Assembly (NCBI RefSeq): GCF_001553345.1
Contig: NZ_KQ960768.1
Location: 83,238-147,237, forward strand
DNA: 64,000 nucleotides
From: Veillonella sp. DNF00869
Lineage (GTDB): Bacteria; Bacillota; Negativicutes; Veillonellales; Veillonellaceae
Direction of reading: 5' to 3'
In this document: positions 1 through 7,345 of the stretch, piece by piece
How the letters are laid out: the number at the start of each line of letters is the position of its first letter
Position numbering within the stretch: the first letter of the stretch is position 1
Notes under the pieces: model-generated
The model's database searches: none
Told to the model about the DNA's origin: nothing
Seen by the model: only the letters and a program-made list of their open reading frames with translations
Program-made: the position numbers and the translations under genes

Positions 1-95
1 ACATTTACAGAATCACACTACTCTCAAACCATTGCCATGGTAGGCTGTATATTCATATTGTTTGAGACATTTACAGAATCACACTACTCTCAAAC
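1..95 (-). CRISPR. Leader-end of a type II-A CRISPR array
   Basis: A complete 36-nt repeat occupies 60-95. An identical but truncated copy (29 nt) occupies 1-29, cut by the window edge, and a 30-nt spacer lies between them at 30-59. Read on the minus strand, in the same direction as the cas genes, the repeat begins GTTTGAGAGTAG and ends ATGTCTCAAAC, which is the usual form of II-A repeats. The array therefore starts at 95, continues leftwards out of the window, and its newest spacer is the one at 30-59. Repeat nt 3-28 (plus-strand reading) are identical to the anti-repeat of the tracrRNA at 6310-6335, which ties this array to the Cas9 here. The spacer target cannot be identified by eye. Confidence 0.95.
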
Positions 96-161
96 CCCAA
101 ATACAAGTTCAGGGTTCCAAAGCTTGTCCAGTCACCACCAAGTGTAATCCTGTAAATACCG
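96..161 (-). promoter_or_regulatory. CRISPR leader with embedded anti-repeat
   Basis: These 66 bases separate the csn2 stop codon from the first repeat and are the only room for a leader. On the minus strand, bases 160-141 read GGTATTTACAGGATTACACT, which can pair with the first repeat over 20 consecutive positions (16 Watson-Crick, 4 G-U). A possible promoter is TTGATT (overlapping the csn2 end) and TACACT, 18 nt apart, whose -10 would lie inside this same stretch. Bases 102-111 share a 10-mer with the tracrRNA at 6333-6342. In other II-A systems the leader end directs spacer integration; that role is inferred here from position only. Confidence 0.6.
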
Positions 162-836
162 TTAAATCAAGCAGAAGTCATTATCTAAAGTATACCCATT
201 AATTAAAGATTTATCAATATTTTGTAGCCCATATGAACCTGAAGATATACATAGAAAACATAGATGTTTAGCTAATATAGTATTAAAAAATTGATCTAAT
301 TCCTCTAGGTCTAAATACAAATCTATATTCATAATTACAAATAAATCTGGATCTAATAATTCATGAACAATATCAATGTAGTCTATTAAACGAGCCACTG
401 TATCTGTATCACTTTCATGTATTTTAAATCCTCCTAACTTAATAAGATCCGCTGCTACAATTTCTTCTTTATGTTCAAGTGCAATGTTGGCTTCAAACTC
501 TAATTTATAGAAGAACTGATGCAGCTTACATACTACATCATGCAAATCTTCCATCATCAAATTACTTTCTTTCACTAAATTAGCATTCAACTTTGTTAAG
601 ATTGTTTTACTATTTACATCTACTTGAATGGGGTTCATGATGATATGAAAAGACTTATCAATCGCTATCCTTTCAGCATTCACATTATATATCCAAGGTC
701 CTTCTCCCCCATTATATTGCTCATATAGTTCTAGAATCATATGTCGAAAAACACTATGCTTTTCAATACATAAATAGTTAACTTTTGTACTATTCAAGTC
801 TATCTCAATGGTTGAATCCTGATAAAATAGCTTCAT
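162..836 (-). CDS. csn2: CRISPR-associated protein Csn2
   Basis: A 224-residue protein at the end of a cas9-cas1-cas2 operon, overlapping the cas2 end by 4 nt (ATGA). Position, size and the N-terminal motif KLFYQDSTIEIDL match Csn2, the tetrameric ring protein that binds free DNA ends and takes part in spacer acquisition with Cas1-Cas2 and Cas9 in type II-A systems. Csn2 families diverge strongly in sequence, so the call rests mainly on gene order and length; no catalytic residues are expected. Its presence sets the subtype as II-A rather than II-C. Base use is more AT-rich than in the housekeeping genes nearby, as is the rest of this operon. Confidence 0.88.
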   Translation of the reverse strand: MKLFYQDSTIEIDLNSTKVNYLCIEKHSVFRHMILELYEQYNGGEGPWIYNVNAERIAIDKSFHIIMNPIQVDVNSKTILTKLNANLVKESNLMMEDLHDVVCKLHQFFYKLEFEANIALEHKEEIVAADLIKLGGFKIHESDTDTVARLIDYIDIVHELLDPDLFVIMNIDLYLDLEELDQFFNTILAKHLCFLCISSGSYGLQNIDKSLINGYTLDNDFCLI

Positions 837-1153
837 AGGACTATCACTCTTTCTGTTGTATCTAACACTTCAGACTGTGTTTCTCCTATCAATATTTCCA
901 TTTTAGAATATTGCTTTTCAGTTACGGTTAATAAACAAATATTTCCATCTGCTGGTTTATGTTCTCGAAGTTGTTTTTCCAGCAATTTAACACTTGTTGT
1001 ATTTAATACCAACTTCACATACACCGATTCTTGTAGCATAATAAACCCATTGACTAGTAAATATTTCCTAAAATCACGATAGGCTTTCCTATGAACTGAT
1101 GTTTCTGTCGGTAAATCAAACATTACGAGTACTCTCATAAATCTATAACTCAT
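833..1153 (-). CDS. cas2: CRISPR-associated endoribonuclease-fold protein Cas2
   Basis: A 106-residue protein with the N-terminal ferredoxin-like strand MRVLVMFDLPTET, typical of Cas2 including the conserved Asp at residue 13. Cas2 dimerises and bridges two Cas1 dimers to form the integrase that inserts new spacers at the leader end. The start is uncertain: ATG at 1153 overlaps the cas1 stop by 11 nt, while the ATG five codons later (1138) would begin directly at the conserved strand. Neither has a strong ribosome binding site, which suggests translational coupling to cas1. Confidence 0.93.
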   Translation of the reverse strand: MSYRFMRVLVMFDLPTETSVHRKAYRDFRKYLLVNGFIMLQESVYVKLVLNTTSVKLLEKQLREHKPADGNICLLTVTEKQYSKMEILIGETQSEVLDTTERVIVL

Positions 1154-2021
1154 ATGTAATAAACCTAATTAAATCTGGATCCTTATATGTCAGTGCATCC
1201 AATACACTTTTGCAATAGATTCCTATGGCATCTTTTAAAATAAAGCTAGTACCTTCTACTTTTACATCTAAAGCTAGTAAACTCACTAGACTAAGTTTTT
1301 CTTCCTTTCCAAACTCCTTAGGGGCTAAGTCAACTATTTTGTTATCCACAAATACTCGTAATACCTCTACTAGGTCTGACCCTAAATTGTAAGAATTAAA
1401 TTGATTTCGATGATTAATTCCCAATTGTGTTATATATCCATTTCTAACAATCTCACGATTAACAGCAGATAAAAATATACTGTACCCATAATCCAATCCA
1501 GCATTAATAGGGTTTTCTTGCTCTCTCGTAAAAGTACTGCCAAACAAGCTATTAAAATATACTTTCGCTGCATGTCCTTCTCTCTGAGTTATGTCATTAA
1601 AGCATATACCATCAATATAGCCATATAGCATATTGGTTTCATTAGTATGCCCATTCTTTTCAAGCACACGAGCTTGATTATGAATCTTCTCAGCTACGAT
1701 ACGACTCCAAATATGCCCCTTAATTTCATCATCCCAGTTAGCTTGTTCGCGGCATCGTTTACTTGTATTATGACAACCATACAATGGCATTACTTCACTA
1801 CTAGGATTCCTCTTTTCATCGCAAAAAACTATTTTAACTTTAGCTTTTACTAATGCATTGAGAAGCACGGCAGTTAAACTAACTGCCGTAGATTCAATAA
1901 TCACCATGTAAATCTCATCAATAAACACTTTCTTTACATCGAATCCCTGCCGAACAATCATATAATTCATCTTAAAATCAAGTTTTGATTGCTTAGTGAT
2001 AACTACCGTGCGCCAACTCAT
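1143..2021 (-). CDS. cas1: CRISPR-associated integrase Cas1
   Basis: A 292-residue Cas1 of the type II lineage. The metal-binding residues can be seen: Glu148 in REGHAAKVYF, His204 in LGINHRNQFN, and Asp216 and Glu219 in NLGSDLVEVLR. Cas1 with Cas2 captures prespacers and joins them to the leader-proximal repeat; in II-A systems Cas9 and Csn2 are also needed for acquisition. It begins 8 nt after the cas9 stop and overlaps cas2, so the four genes form one transcription unit. Length and motif order are normal, with no sign of decay. Confidence 0.96.
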   Translation of the reverse strand: MSWRTVVITKQSKLDFKMNYMIVRQGFDVKKVFIDEIYMVIIESTAVSLTAVLLNALVKAKVKIVFCDEKRNPSSEVMPLYGCHNTSKRCREQANWDDEIKGHIWSRIVAEKIHNQARVLEKNGHTNETNMLYGYIDGICFNDITQREGHAAKVYFNSLFGSTFTREQENPINAGLDYGYSIFLSAVNREIVRNGYITQLGINHRNQFNSYNLGSDLVEVLRVFVDNKIVDLAPKEFGKEEKLSLVSLLALDVKVEGTSFILKDAIGIYCKSVLDALTYKDPDLIRFITYEL

Positions 2022-2029
2022 AGTGTCTC

Positions 2030-5000
2030 CTATTTTATTTTAATTTCTTGTTCATATAAGCCTGTGATAGATGTTGTAATAACGCTAAATTGTTCCGTAT
2101 TAGATATATTAATCCCCAGTGTAGAACGAGAACTAGTCATGCCAATTTTTGTAATATCTCGTTTTGTTTTAAAGTTCGTTAACACATTCAACACTTCCAA
2201 TAGCACACTAGCTTGGTCCTCTAAAGATAATGCTATGAATGTATCAAAGCCAACTGTTCGAAACTCTTCTAATTTATTTCCTTTCATCTTAGAAAATAGA
2301 GGCGTATCAAGTTTTTTTAACAACTCTTGATATAAGGCAATATTTTGTTCTTTACTAACTGTAACTTCTTTATGGTTATAAGATGTTTTTATATTCTCAA
2401 TACGGAATGTTTTTGAGTTTTCTATCTTTTTAATAGCTACTTTTTCTAGCAATTTAATATATACACTCGATGTTATATCCATTACCACATCAACCGCACT
2501 ATCGACAGAAACATTAGATCCTGTTTTACCACCCATATAATAAGTAAAACCATTAATATTTACTTTACTACCAATATATAGTCCTCGATATAGTATTTGG
2601 ATATCTACCACTGATGCAGGTTTTTTACAAGTAGATAAATATGCCTCTTCTATTGCCTTATGAATATCTTTCTTACCTGCTATATAAAGTGGTAAGGAAA
2701 ATATTTCAATTCGATCTTGGTCCGAAGTATCCCTGATATTCAAAATGATATATTCAGAAATGGTAATCGATGTTCTTCCGCCATATTTTTCCACATCTCT
2801 TACACGTTCATCAGATGATTTCAATGGCAGATATACACCACGTTTAGCGATTCCTTTTTTGTATATAGTTTCATCAGATAGACCACCTTTTTGAGGTACC
2901 GCCCGTTGTGTAACACGTACATCATTACTTTTCATCATCTTTTTCACTATGTCCATATGAATATTAGGATCCCAGATCACCTTCTTAGATTCTTCTGTTA
3001 ATTTAATTTCATATTCAAACATTTTTGTTAAATTATATGTACGATGTGTCCCTTTTTGTTTAGCAAAGGATAAAAAGTTTTTTGTAAACTTTTCATGATA
3101 CACATTGCCTACTACGATATTTAGGTACGCATCTTTTGCATGATGATGATGATTAATAGAGCGCACTTTTACAAAGCCATAATCACGTCTAAAATCAGAT
3201 ATATTTTCTGCTTTAGAAAATACTACTTCTGTCTCTGGATACAGTTGATGTAATAAAGTAGTAACCGCCTTAACAGACTGATTCGTAGATACTATCTGAC
3301 GATTTATAAACTGATTGAGTTCCTCATCGGTTAAGTCTGTTGTACGAACTAAACGATCATATTTCTTTTCGGAAATAAATCCCCTATCCCATAATAATTT
3401 CCAAAATCCTTTTTGCTTAGATTGAATAGCCGATAAAATTGGAAACCGGTCTGTTTTCTCTGCATTTAATTGTTTTTCCACTAACACAATATTATGCCAA
3501 CTGTCATCCTTTGTTAAGCTACGCGGATATATATGGTCAATATCATACGTATCTGTAAACAATTCATGAATATCGATTCTACGGCCAGAATACATACAAC
3601 GCCCCATTTGTGTAAAGTATAAGTATAGCTTTTTACTATTCAGAGCAGAATCTTCTTTAGATTCCAATTCTTGTTGCAAAACATGTACATCTTCATCTTT
3701 AATTTGTTCATATAACTCTTCCAACAGTGCTTTTCTAGACTGAGTCCGTTTTTTATCCGCTTTATTTGTGCGAGCTACTTCTACAAATATTTTCTTTGGT
3801 AGTTCTTTACGTATAGATACGATCTCATCAAGGATGCGCAATGTTTGCCATACGCTACGTTTTACCATCGGCGATAAGGATAAATCTTCTAACATTTCAA
3901 ATGCTGTCTTTTCTTTCGCCCCCAATACGTTTGTCACATATTCTTGGACCACATCAATGAAAGAATAAGAAGAGCTCAATAGTTGCATTAAATTTTCCTG
4001 CCCCTCACGCATATGCTCAATGATAGTACCTGCTTCTGCATCGTCATCATTCTTTTTCATACCCCAAATATCTGACAAGAATTTTTTAGACAATCTACCC
4101 CAACCTGTATAGGTAAGTTTCCCTAATTTTTTAATTTGTTCTGTAGTAAGACGATCTCCATAATAGTTTTTCAACACTTGTCGCAACATATCTTTACTTT
4201 CACCAAAGATAGTGATATATCGAATGATATCTTCTGCCATGGCATAGTCAAAATGTTCCCCTAGGATACGAGTCATGTCTCTGTGGGATGTTAACTTCGT
4301 AGCAATCTGTTGGTCCATGCCTGTGATGATAGGCGGTTGTGACACATAGTTATTATCTACTAAATATTTTGCCACCACTTTTTTCGTAGCTGTTTTACTA
4401 TCTTGCAAGGATATAAAATGGTCTCGGATAAATGCTTGTTTCACATCTGCAGGTAATGGTTTATCGTTGACACGAATATTGTTCAATTCATTCAGCAACG
4501 AAAACTCCGCATAGAGCAAGGAATATTTAGGTAACACATCTTGGTCGATTAAATAGGTACATTTGTTAGTTAAGTTTTCAATGAATTTAACCGCCGATGC
4601 TTGGACGTCAACTTTTTGTTCAAAGTTCCATGGCAATACTTGTCCTGCTTCTTTACGGACAACCCAAGCAAAACCACCATTTTCAATGGAGTGTGTTGGA
4701 TTCAATGGCCCCACATAATACGGGATTTTAAATTCTAAGATAGATATAATTTTATCCGCTACGGTCAATCCATCTTCTACTTCATTTAAAAATGGGAAGT
4801 TTAGCTTTGCTTTTTCTAGAATGCGTACTAATTCTTCTTTATGCAGTTGATAAGGTACTACCCCATTTTTACTAATTCGTTGAAGTGGTAAAAATGTTCC
4901 TTCTTCTAGTTTCTGCACTATACATCTTGTATTTTCTGTTTCTGGTAATACGGAGACTACTTTTCTAACATACTTATAAAACGCTTCTTGTGTTGTAGAG

Positions 5001-6160
5001 GTATTACCATTCACACCTTGTTTAATATATTTAACGTAATTTGTACCTTTATCTATATCTACAACAAACATGTCATCATATAATTTTTTGTCCTCTTTCA
5101 GCACAGATTTTAAAAGCACTAGATCTTCTTTATGTTGATTATAGGATTCTATTTTTGCCTCTGACAAAGATTGCCCAGGCTTTATAATAGAGCTAATCAC
5201 AATGATATCGTGTAAAACCTTACATTGATCGACAATAGCAAATCGGTCACCCCAAGCATCTTCATAAGCATCCCGTACATCCTCATAGATACCTTCATGT
5301 AAATTAATACTCTTAAATTCTTTTTCTTCTGGAAGTACTACTTCTACATCCTCATCTGTAAATAGATTGACCAAATTAGCTTTCAAGCCCATGATGAGAT
5401 AAGCCCAAGCTTTTAACCTGTTTTTTTCTACACTGGATAATTTTTTTCCTTGTGCAATCAACGGCTCTATCTGCTTTACCTTTTCACTTCGTGCAATACC
5501 TCTATCTAGCACTAAATTGGCTATAGACTGGAGCACATTTTCATCCTCCACATAGCTTCCAAAACCTAGTTCTTCTAAAGTAGATCTAAGAACTGAATAC
5601 ATCTCTCCATCTACAGAAAATTCTTTTTTCCCATACAAAAAGTTTCCCCGATATTTTAAGATATGATGAATCGCCAAAAATAACAAACGAATATCTTTCG
5701 TGCCTTCTGTCATCAAATGATGGCGCAAATGATAGATGGTTGGAAATTCCTTGTAGTAATCCACATCTGTGTAATTCTTGTCTATGAATAATGTATATTT
5801 CACTAGATTTGTTTTATCTTCTACATGGTAGTTTGATTCATGAAGGCGCATGAAAAATGTTTCATCTACAGCATTTATTTCTTTAGAAAACAAAGACTCT
5901 AGTAAAATCAATCGAAACTTTCGACGTTGCAGGCGACGACGAGCAGACCGTTTCATACGTGTATCAACAGCTGTTTGTGCCTCTGCAAACAGTCTAGATC
6001 CCCACATTTTATGAGATTTAAATTTCAACAACTCATATTGCTCATTTGTAGCTGCCCAGCCTACTGAATTCGTCCCAATATCTAACCCTATATAGTAATT
6101 CCCCTTCTTTAGACCTTTGTGTTTACAAATTGAATCCTTATGATTGTCAAAATTACTCAT
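2030..6160 (-). CDS. cas9: Type II-A CRISPR RNA-guided endonuclease Cas9
   Basis: A 1376-residue Cas9 when started at the ATG at 6160, which follows AAAGGAG by 7 nt. An ATG-like start 21 nt upstream lacks such a site. In this numbering RuvC-I is IGLDIGTNSVGW with Asp27, the arginine-rich bridge helix lies at about 68-83, RuvC-II is FVEVART with Glu794, HNH is YDIDHIYPRS with His876, and RuvC-III is HHHHAKDAYLN with Asp1010. All nuclease residues are present, so the enzyme is predicted to be active. Size and layout match the large Cas9 group that includes S. pyogenes Cas9. It uses the tracrRNA encoded divergently upstream. The C-terminal PAM-interacting region is present, but the PAM cannot be read from sequence. 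Confidence 0.97.
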   Translation of the reverse strand: MSNFDNHKDSICKHKGLKKGNYYIGLDIGTNSVGWAATNEQYELLKFKSHKMWGSRLFAEAQTAVDTRMKRSARRRLQRRKFRLILLESLFSKEINAVDETFFMRLHESNYHVEDKTNLVKYTLFIDKNYTDVDYYKEFPTIYHLRHHLMTEGTKDIRLLFLAIHHILKYRGNFLYGKKEFSVDGEMYSVLRSTLEELGFGSYVEDENVLQSIANLVLDRGIARSEKVKQIEPLIAQGKKLSSVEKNRLKAWAYLIMGLKANLVNLFTDEDVEVVLPEEKEFKSINLHEGIYEDVRDAYEDAWGDRFAIVDQCKVLHDIIVISSIIKPGQSLSEAKIESYNQHKEDLVLLKSVLKEDKKLYDDMFVVDIDKGTNYVKYIKQGVNGNTSTTQEAFYKYVRKVVSVLPETENTRCIVQKLEEGTFLPLQRISKNGVVPYQLHKEELVRILEKAKLNFPFLNEVEDGLTVADKIISILEFKIPYYVGPLNPTHSIENGGFAWVVRKEAGQVLPWNFEQKVDVQASAVKFIENLTNKCTYLIDQDVLPKYSLLYAEFSLLNELNNIRVNDKPLPADVKQAFIRDHFISLQDSKTATKKVVAKYLVDNNYVSQPPIITGMDQQIATKLTSHRDMTRILGEHFDYAMAEDIIRYITIFGESKDMLRQVLKNYYGDRLTTEQIKKLGKLTYTGWGRLSKKFLSDIWGMKKNDDDAEAGTIIEHMREGQENLMQLLSSSYSFIDVVQEYVTNVLGAKEKTAFEMLEDLSLSPMVKRSVWQTLRILDEIVSIRKELPKKIFVEVARTNKADKKRTQSRKALLEELYEQIKDEDVHVLQQELESKEDSALNSKKLYLYFTQMGRCMYSGRRIDIHELFTDTYDIDHIYPRSLTKDDSWHNIVLVEKQLNAEKTDRFPILSAIQSKQKGFWKLLWDRGFISEKKYDRLVRTTDLTDEELNQFINRQIVSTNQSVKAVTTLLHQLYPETEVVFSKAENISDFRRDYGFVKVRSINHHHHAKDAYLNIVVGNVYHEKFTKNFLSFAKQKGTHRTYNLTKMFEYEIKLTEESKKVIWDPNIHMDIVKKMMKSNDVRVTQRAVPQKGGLSDETIYKKGIAKRGVYLPLKSSDERVRDVEKYGGRTSITISEYIILNIRDTSDQDRIEIFSLPLYIAGKKDIHKAIEEAYLSTCKKPASVVDIQILYRGLYIGSKVNINGFTYYMGGKTGSNVSVDSAVDVVMDITSSVYIKLLEKVAIKKIENSKTFRIENIKTSYNHKEVTVSKEQNIALYQELLKKLDTPLFSKMKGNKLEEFRTVGFDTFIALSLEDQASVLLEVLNVLTNFKTKRDITKIGMTSSRSTLGINISNTEQFSVITTSITGLYEQEIKIK

Positions 6161-6243
6161 CGTTCTTCTCCTTTTGATCAACTACCATGAAATAATCCCT
6201 TATAATAATTCAAGATGAATATCACCATTTGTTATTTAATTGT

Positions 6244-6272
6244 ATTATACTACTAAAAAACCCTTGACTCCA
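6244..6272 (-). promoter_or_regulatory. Probable cas operon promoter
   Basis: On the minus strand a TATAAT lies at 6249-6244, with a weak -35 (TGGAGT, 6272-6267) at 17 nt. It would start transcription about 75 nt before the cas9 ATG. Its -35 region overlaps the -35 of the plus-strand tracrRNA promoter (6264-6269). Confidence 0.45.
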
Positions 6273-6292
6273 TATCTTTTTCTGTATACAAT
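6264..6292 (+). promoter_or_regulatory. tracrRNA promoter
   Basis: TTGACT at 6264-6269 and TACAAT at 6287-6292 are separated by 17 nt, a good sigma-70 type promoter on the plus strand. Predicted initiation is near 6299, just before the anti-repeat. Confidence 0.75.
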
Positions 6293-6298
6293 AAAGGT

Positions 6299-6420
6299 GT
6301 CTCAAGGAGTTGAGACATTTACAGAATCACACTACAAGTTCAAATACGAATTTATTTTCATCGCCCTTGGGGCGCCCGCTGTGGGTACTTAACTCAATTC
6401 ATTAAGAATTGAGTTTTTTT
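6299..6420 (+). ncRNA. tracrRNA of the II-A system
   Basis: Bases 6310-6335 are identical to 26 nt of the CRISPR repeat and form the anti-repeat. They are followed by AAGT (6336-6339), the bulge also found in the S. pyogenes duplex, and by TCAAAT (6340-6345), which pairs with the repeat 5' end GTTTGA as the lower stem. Downstream are a GC hairpin (6362-6366 with 6370-6374), a small CCC/GGG hairpin (6375-6377 with 6383-6385), and a 9-bp terminator stem (6392-6400 with 6406-6414) ending in seven T. The transcript is thus about 120 nt and runs opposite to cas9. Its 5' end GTCTCAA (6299-6305) can fold back on TTGAGAC (6310-6316). Confidence 0.93.
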
Positions 6421-6502
6421 ATTATCCTTCTTTAAAAGCACGATACCATACATAGATTATATTACGTTATACTAGCGACTAAACAAAGTATCATAAGACC
6501 AA

Positions 6503-6542
6503 AAAAAGGAACGTTGATCAAACATTATCAACGTTCCTTTTT
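6503..6542. terminator. Bidirectional terminator
   Basis: An 11-bp perfect stem GGAACGTTGAT (6508-6518) with ATCAACGTTCC (6527-6537), flanked by A and T runs on both sides, ends the minus-strand transcript from 6650-7345 and could also stop read-through from the tracrRNA side. Elsewhere in 6421-6649 there are two smaller hairpins, 6589-6609 (CTCACTGT arms) and 6620-6634 (CCTAC arms); I see no gene there. Confidence 0.8.
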
Positions 6543-6649
6543 ATATATTTACTCGTATATTAAGACCATAGATAGTCCTAGTAAATACCTCACTGTCTCA
6601 AACAGTGAGATACGCCAATCCTACAAATAGTAGGAGGCATCATTTTATA

Positions 6650-7345
6650 TTACCGCTGTTTAGCCCATCGTTGGTATCCTTTCCACAACAGGAAATAGAT
6701 AACCGTAGCAATGAGCACCACTACTGCCAATCGTCCTAGATTATCTTGTAACAGCACCGTATCGTGACCCACAATCACTTCTAGCGCGGTAGATGGAAAC
6801 TTACCAATCAAGTTCGCAATGATGTAATCCCGTAAGGAGATTTGACTAATGGCTCCTAAGGCTGTGATGATTCCACTTGGAAAATATGGAATAGATCTAG
6901 CAAAAAGCATCATAACTAAACCATTTTTACCACTAAAGTCATCTACTTTCAGTAAAAACTCGCTCTTTTCAATGACCTTATGTGCCGTATCTCGCAAAAT
7001 GTAGCGCATAATCATAAAACTAAGCACCACACCTACAGTCTCTGCTAACCAAGAAATAATAATCCCTGGCACCACACCAAATAACAAGCCATTGGCTGTA
7101 GAAAAGAAGATGGATGGTAAAAATCCCAATGCATTGATGAGCACATCCAGAGCAAAGCTTATCACCATGGCCCATGGCCCATAGGATTGTAATACCTCTG
7201 CCATGCGTTGTACATCACCAGAAAGGATTAATTCCCACATATCATCATAGAAACCTGGAACAAGGACGTACACTAGAAGACCCAGTGCTACTAATCCGCT
7301 TAACAACCCTAGTTGTATATACCGTTCCTTTTTCTTATCATTCAT
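6650..7345 (-). CDS. TVP38/TMEM64 (VTT-domain) membrane protein
   Basis: A 231-residue integral membrane protein with a first helix near residues 12-31. A central VTT/SNARE-associated domain follows, with segments ending in NALGFLPSIFFSTANGLLFGVVPG and LFARSIPYFPSGIITALGAIS, and a last helix near 205-222. The F/ARSIP and G-rich turns are characteristic of the TVP38/DedA superfamily, thought to move lipids such as undecaprenyl phosphate or phospholipids between leaflets; the exact substrate of this member is unknown. It lies 27 nt downstream of aspartate kinase on the same strand and ahead of a strong terminator, so it is probably the last gene of that transcript. Confidence 0.82.
   Translation of the reverse strand: MNDKKKERYIQLGLLSGLVALGLLVYVLVPGFYDDMWELILSGDVQRMAEVLQSYGPWAMVISFALDVLINALGFLPSIFFSTANGLLFGVVPGIIISWLAETVGVVLSFMIMRYILRDTAHKVIEKSEFLLKVDDFSGKNGLVMMLFARSIPYFPSGIITALGAISQISLRDYIIANLIGKFPSTALEVIVGHDTVLLQDNLGRLAVVVLIATVIYFLLWKGYQRWAKQR

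Follow-up and report, generated by a model that had tools for sequence, protein, structure and literature searches.

A Veillonella CRISPR leader with the predicted fold of a type II-A leader-repeat hairpin

In type II-A CRISPR (clustered regularly interspaced short palindromic repeats) systems, a hairpin formed between the leader and the first repeat has been described by Liao et al. (2022, Nat Microbiol 7:530-541). As cited in PMC12080349 and PMC13187072, this hairpin hinders the trans-activating CRISPR RNA (tracrRNA) at the extra repeat with which the array begins, suppresses extraneous CRISPR RNA (crRNA) and speeds the maturation of the newest crRNA. Here we describe a comparable element in a stretch of 64,000 nucleotides (nt) from Veillonella sp. 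DNF00869, called the window below; coordinates are those of the whole window, and labels such as L001 denote loci in other genomes. A CRISPR array is cut by the start of the window, and its leader, at 96-161 on the minus strand adjoining csn2, holds a 20-nt segment complementary to the repeat (the leader anti-repeat). We consider it likely, with a probability of about 0.85, that this anti-repeat is the 5' arm of a type II-A leader-repeat hairpin in the precursor crRNA, shielding the first repeat (R1) from tracrRNA.

The Veillonella locus shares with the hairpin of Liao et al., as the citing papers describe it, the type II-A system, a leader RNA that folds onto R1 and covers its tracrRNA-binding part, and the guide-repeat layout, in which extraneous crRNA belongs to the first repeat. 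It differs in belonging to Negativicutes-type relatives of Veillonella and in the prediction of a second leader segment and a junction hairpin, the two structures being likened by description. The element agrees with the described hairpin in system type, in location and order, and in which part of the repeat it covers; we therefore assign it to the type II-A leader-repeat hairpins on structure. In the leader-repeat hairpin of type VI (Cas13b) systems, too, leader RNA folds over the first repeat and prevents it from being processed, but according to PMC13187072 this hairpin belongs to another effector, involves no tracrRNA, blocks Cas13 binding and is regarded by its authors as convergent. Type II-C systems, whose transcribed arrays likewise begin with an extra repeat, face the same problem and are described in PMC12080349 as using terminators, guide-sequestering hairpins or repeat mutations instead, with no II-A-like leader hairpin identified. 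Elements of this kind are already known from other Cas9 systems. Our literature search gave no title on this leader in Veillonella among the matches listed, most subscription papers lying outside its reach. The features that make up the predicted structure and its surroundings in the array are as follows.

141 to 160, minus strand: leader anti-repeat, the outer 5' arm of the predicted hairpin, GGTATTTACAGGATTACACT; pairs with R1 at 20 of 20 positions, with compensatory changes in relatives
60 to 95, minus strand: first repeat R1, leader-proximal and 'extra'; the anti-repeat is predicted to pair with its bases 85-66, and the second leader segment with its bases 95-92 and 90-86
108 to 123, minus strand: second leader segment; in the window fold it supplies the 5' arm of an inner stem whose other arm, 101-86, runs from the leader end into the 5' part of R1
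130 to 139, minus strand: small 3-bp hairpin at the junction of outer and inner stems in the window fold; weak by itself
96 to 107, minus strand: repeat-proximal leader end, CTTGTATTTGGG
30 to 59, minus strand: newest spacer S1, between both repeat copies
1 to 29, minus strand: second repeat R2, cut by the window edge, with 29 of 36 nt present

Read on the minus strand, 160-141 pairs with R1 (95-60) over 20 consecutive positions, 16 of them Watson-Crick and four G-U, just as a preliminary description of this DNA had counted. That description had also placed the element one base after csn2 and 45 nt before the repeat, spacings that agree with a csn2 frame ending at 162 and R1 at 95-60. The anti-repeat of the tracrRNA from the same locus (plus strand, 6314-6333) is complementary to the same 20-nt stretch of the repeat and identical to the leader element at 16 of 20 bases. 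The four differences noted earlier, A to G, C to T, A to G and C to T, were confirmed there, and all four still pair with the repeat. The tracrRNA is trans-acting and has its own locus, whereas the element in the leader would work in cis, with the four G-U pairs. Chance complementarity in the window was ruled out by two controls: the longest pairing run among 5000 base-shuffled leaders was 18, none reaching 20, and the longest among 67-nt tiles of the window, on both strands and omitting the first 200 bases and the tracrRNA stretch, was 15. In the window, the complementarity of the leader directly upstream to R1, in hairpin order, is therefore beyond chance.

The leader together with R1 (182-60) has a predicted folding energy of -39.3 kcal/mol, against -25.2 (standard deviation 3.3) for shuffled sequences (z -4.23), and none of 200 dinucleotide shuffles folded as well. 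The outer stem of this fold joins 160-141 with 85-66, and 29 of the 36 bases of R1 are paired with the leader, so that the tracrRNA-binding part of the repeat is covered. In a longer RNA that includes S1 and most of R2, the element pairs with R1 at a mean probability of 0.82 and with R2 at 0.08. The junction hairpin appears by eye in the same form in the folds of L002, L003, L006 and L007. The long leader-repeat hairpin suggested earlier is thus predicted, and is longer than had been noted, the inner stem (123-108 with 101-86) being added; the read-through from csn2 on which it was then thought to depend is not required if the promoter-like site discussed below is used.

For comparison we collected leader-repeat junctions from related bacteria. 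A search of the family with csn2 matched 9 of 28 genomes; csn2 led to Veillonella sp. VA137 and 3891, with 77% identity. Junctions were found with a pattern that joined the end of the leader to the start of the repeat, left out the anti-repeat element and allowed at most 3 mismatches. It matched 22 of 380 genomes of the class, which we take to be the Negativicutes, and 19 of the 22 matches were leader-repeat junctions; those left out were L012 and L020 (coding DNA, by eye) and L024 (inside an array). With the window the set numbers 20. When leader and R1 were paired as a duplex and compared with 500 dinucleotide shuffles, at most one shuffle was as good in 12 of the 20 loci. Folds were made for 19 junctions (L016 was dropped), and at least 23 of 36 repeat bases are paired with the leader in 18 of them, a count made without shuffle control.

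Leader and repeat have changed together. A 10-locus alignment (L001 and the nine most distant loci dropped) was built from sequence alone, and RNAalifold recovered both the outer and the inner stem from it. Paired cells amount to 92.6%, compared with 31-47% when the partners are slid by 1 to 3 columns. Two-sided compensatory changes occur in 9 of 30 pairs, all of them in the outer stem; one pair, for instance, is split evenly between C-G and U-A, with five loci each. The inner stem keeps 13 of its 14 pairs in at least 8 of the 10 loci. Since kinship of the sequences can inflate the shuffle control, we take the slid control and the two-sided counts as the stronger evidence that pairing has been kept by evolution. 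The compensatory changes that the preliminary description had suggested looking for at aligned junctions are thus present, in 9 of 16 outer-stem pairs.

A swap test leads in the same direction. It covered 18 junctions, as did the G-U counts given below (L001, which has a leader deletion, and L016, a near copy of L015, were dropped). Each of the 18 leaders was paired with each of the 18 repeats, and the cognate mean was -26.3 kcal/mol, against -19.5 (standard deviation 0.9) for permuted pairings; none of 20,000 permutations matched it. The 10 nearer loci taken alone gave the same result (0 of 20,000); with the 8 most distant alone, 8 of 20,000 permutations matched. Judged from these alignments, changes in the repeat tend to be followed by changes in the leader. 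Transitions between element and repeat also show a strand bias, 32 keeping a G-U pair on the leader strand and 6 only on the other strand (P 2.4e-4 against a baseline set by the repeats' own base composition); as the loci are not independent, this bias is only indicative. It would favour an RNA from the minus strand that pairs with the repeat over one from the plus strand that pairs with tracrRNA. The computations establish the pairing potential and the co-evolution of leader and repeat, and we regard the element as real; it is apparently subject to selection and probably has a function in making crRNA.

Several observations weigh against a general hairpin that shields R1. Eight of the 20 loci are not strong in the duplex shuffle test, with the following numbers of shuffles as good among 500: L011 10, L001 12, L023 22, L019 55, L015 62, L016 63, L018 84 and L021 122. 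L019 also folds otherwise, with only 7 of 36 repeat bases paired with the leader. Only 11 of the 18 leaders in the swap test had their cognate repeat as best or equal-best partner; some loci share one repeat, and the repeats of close relatives also pair well. The inner stem shows zero two-sided changes, and the element-repeat alignments of the 18 loci contain 31 transversion differences and 28 gap positions. The newest repeats of L002 carry a change that breaks one pair, and the L002 leader pairs better with the window's repeat (-33.9) than with the newest repeat of its own array (-28.0). To look beyond the class, plasmids were searched for Cas9; of the 8 records obtained, 3 were examined. Two Lactobacillus plasmid loci have no annotated csn2 in the stretch examined; the Nicoliella locus (L042) has one, adjoined by the array, and this sole type II-A locus tested outside the class is weak, 21 of 500 base shuffles being as good. 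Finally, in isolation the tracrRNA anti-repeat binds the repeat more strongly (-47.5 kcal/mol) than the 20-nt leader element alone (-23.4), so delaying or blocking tracrRNA would rely on the cis hairpin forming first.

A candidate promoter for the array lies upstream of the hairpin.

189 to 217, minus strand: putative array promoter inside the 3' end of csn2, TTGATA-17-TATACT, 10 of 12 matches, start expected near 182

Transcription probably starts from a promoter in the 3' end of csn2, and a start near 182 would take in the whole hairpin; with a promoter-like site in this position, read-through from csn2 need not be assumed. The form TTG-17-TATAYT is present in the csn2 3' end of 11 of the 20 loci (window, L001-L003, L006-L011 and L022) and was not found there in the other nine; protein coding may account for part of this conservation. 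A further point against the proposed scheme is that promoter-like sites are not enriched in the 1.2 kb scanned, 6 being found and 7.7 expected from shuffles, and since such sites are as common in shuffles, a promoter-like site alone proves nothing. In a study of oral samples (PMC4438527), most Veillonella-type (VSI) spacers, which may or may not belong to the present repeat, were found to be transcribed.

In the resulting RNA, the repeat-complementary leader segment would fold onto R1, and the second leader segment would close the inner stem over the 5' end of R1. From the published type II-A work, we would expect the hairpin to keep tracrRNA off R1. In the guide-repeat layout R1 lacks a spacer of its own, and with the hairpin in place it would yield no useless 'extraneous' crRNA. 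Maturation of the crRNA from the newest spacer may be favoured in the same way. Of the roles proposed in the preliminary description, the decoy that conceals the first repeat from tracrRNA has the best support, namely the compensatory changes, the covering of the stretch that tracrRNA matches and the published mechanism.

The same hairpin could mainly be a substrate for ribonuclease III, cut without tracrRNA, which would trim the leader and start maturation. Stacked stems of this kind meet the length requirement of ribonuclease III, and the 20-bp outer stem, stacked on the inner stem in the predicted fold, is long enough. However, the G-U pairs and the junction interrupt the double strand, and the type II-A work, as cited in PMC12080349 and PMC13187072, reports interference with tracrRNA; we think this use of the hairpin unlikely. 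The ribonuclease III entry site named in the preliminary description would be compatible with the predicted structure. A small RNA acting in trans, transcribed separately from either strand and pairing with tracrRNA or with other repeats, is very unlikely. The plus strand does resemble the repeat, and leader RNA could pair with other repeats in principle, as the low probability for R2 illustrates. The G-U bias, however, would make a plus-strand version a poorer partner for tracrRNA, and a scan of 1-1200 for promoter-like sites on the plus strand showed, left of the element, only ones in S1 and at the edge of R1. We found no support for the role resembling a small CRISPR-associated RNA that had been raised earlier, and the bias opposes its plus-strand form.

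The element could instead work at the DNA level, as a promoter -10 or as a marker for spacer integration. It does lie in the leader, and a TTGATT-18-TACACT match overlaps it in the window and in L003, but in just these 2 of the 20 loci, and the G-U bias indicates RNA. L019 has a different, weak promoter-like match near its element. The -10 idea of the preliminary description is accordingly weak, no support was found for the integration marker, and we hold a DNA-level role to be highly improbable. A decayed inverted repeat copy, or chance complementarity with no function, is scarcely credible: the element is an imperfect inverted copy of the repeat beside the array, and in the 8 weaker loci its pairing is not clearly beyond shuffles, yet compensatory changes occur in other genera and chance is excluded for the window. 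The decayed copy, also suggested earlier, is contradicted by the co-variation of leader and repeat.

Under the preferred reading, a hairpin shielding R1, the type II-A leader-repeat hairpin is extended to Veillonella-type and related bacteria, with co-variation as strong sequence evidence for an RNA structure. The relatives also supply natural variants that could reveal how much pairing the hairpin needs: L001 has a deletion of about 40 nt in its leader, and in L002 one base of the repeat has changed with no matching change in the leader. Our results also suggest keeping the leader when such arrays are studied in another host.

Compared with L002, the leader of L001 (2081-2240) is without about 40 nt between the anti-repeat and R1, the usual leader end included; the anti-repeat and outer stem are kept. 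The array of L005 (8742-10657), which contains the L002 stretch, has C at repeat position 21 in the newer repeats and T in the oldest, leader-distal ones. The L005 leader and its apparent tracrRNA, identified by eye, still fit the T form. The pattern looks as if the new base had advanced through the array from the leader side while leader and tracrRNA had yet to change. Beyond the known block in cis, it is an unlikely but conceivable idea that the leader limits repeat evolution: new repeats are copied from R1, so only changes that leader and tracrRNA tolerate or later match would spread, and the trio would drift locked together with the repeat leading. The junction-shaped fold could, on the same idea, also switch between R1 and R2 as spacers are added.

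At L003 (1390-1850), csn2 was matched over its last 59 residues only and the nearby cas sequence is fragmentary by eye. The leader, hairpin and array are kept there despite this, and the anti-repeat element is identical to that of the window. In Nicoliella L042 (11040-11190) only about 31 nt separate csn2 from R1, and the best repeat-pairing segment would lie mostly inside the end of csn2.

The remaining features of the Veillonella locus are these.

162 to 836, minus strand: csn2, TIGR01866 (E 2.7e-38) and PF09711; marks type II-A
833 to 1153, minus strand: cas2, TIGR01573
1143 to 2021, minus strand: cas1 (type II), TIGR03639
2030 to 6157, minus strand: cas9, TIGR01865 (E 9.9e-270)
6307 to 6420, plus strand: tracrRNA locus, ends judged by eye; anti-repeat at 6314-6333

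The locus is type II-A because NCBIfam names csn2, cas2, type II cas1 and cas9; the gene set cas9-cas1-cas2-csn2 has the array beside csn2. By analogy with Streptococcus thermophilus, for which PMC6895254 describes recognition of the leader-repeat junction by type II-A Cas1-Cas2, the leader end at 96-107 may be the place of such recognition here. An Rfam scan of 1-7000 gave a single weak, irrelevant match. Downstream of the tracrRNA locus, at 6503-6542, an inverted repeat of 16 bp without mismatch encloses an 8-nt loop and ends in a T-run, which makes it terminator-like.
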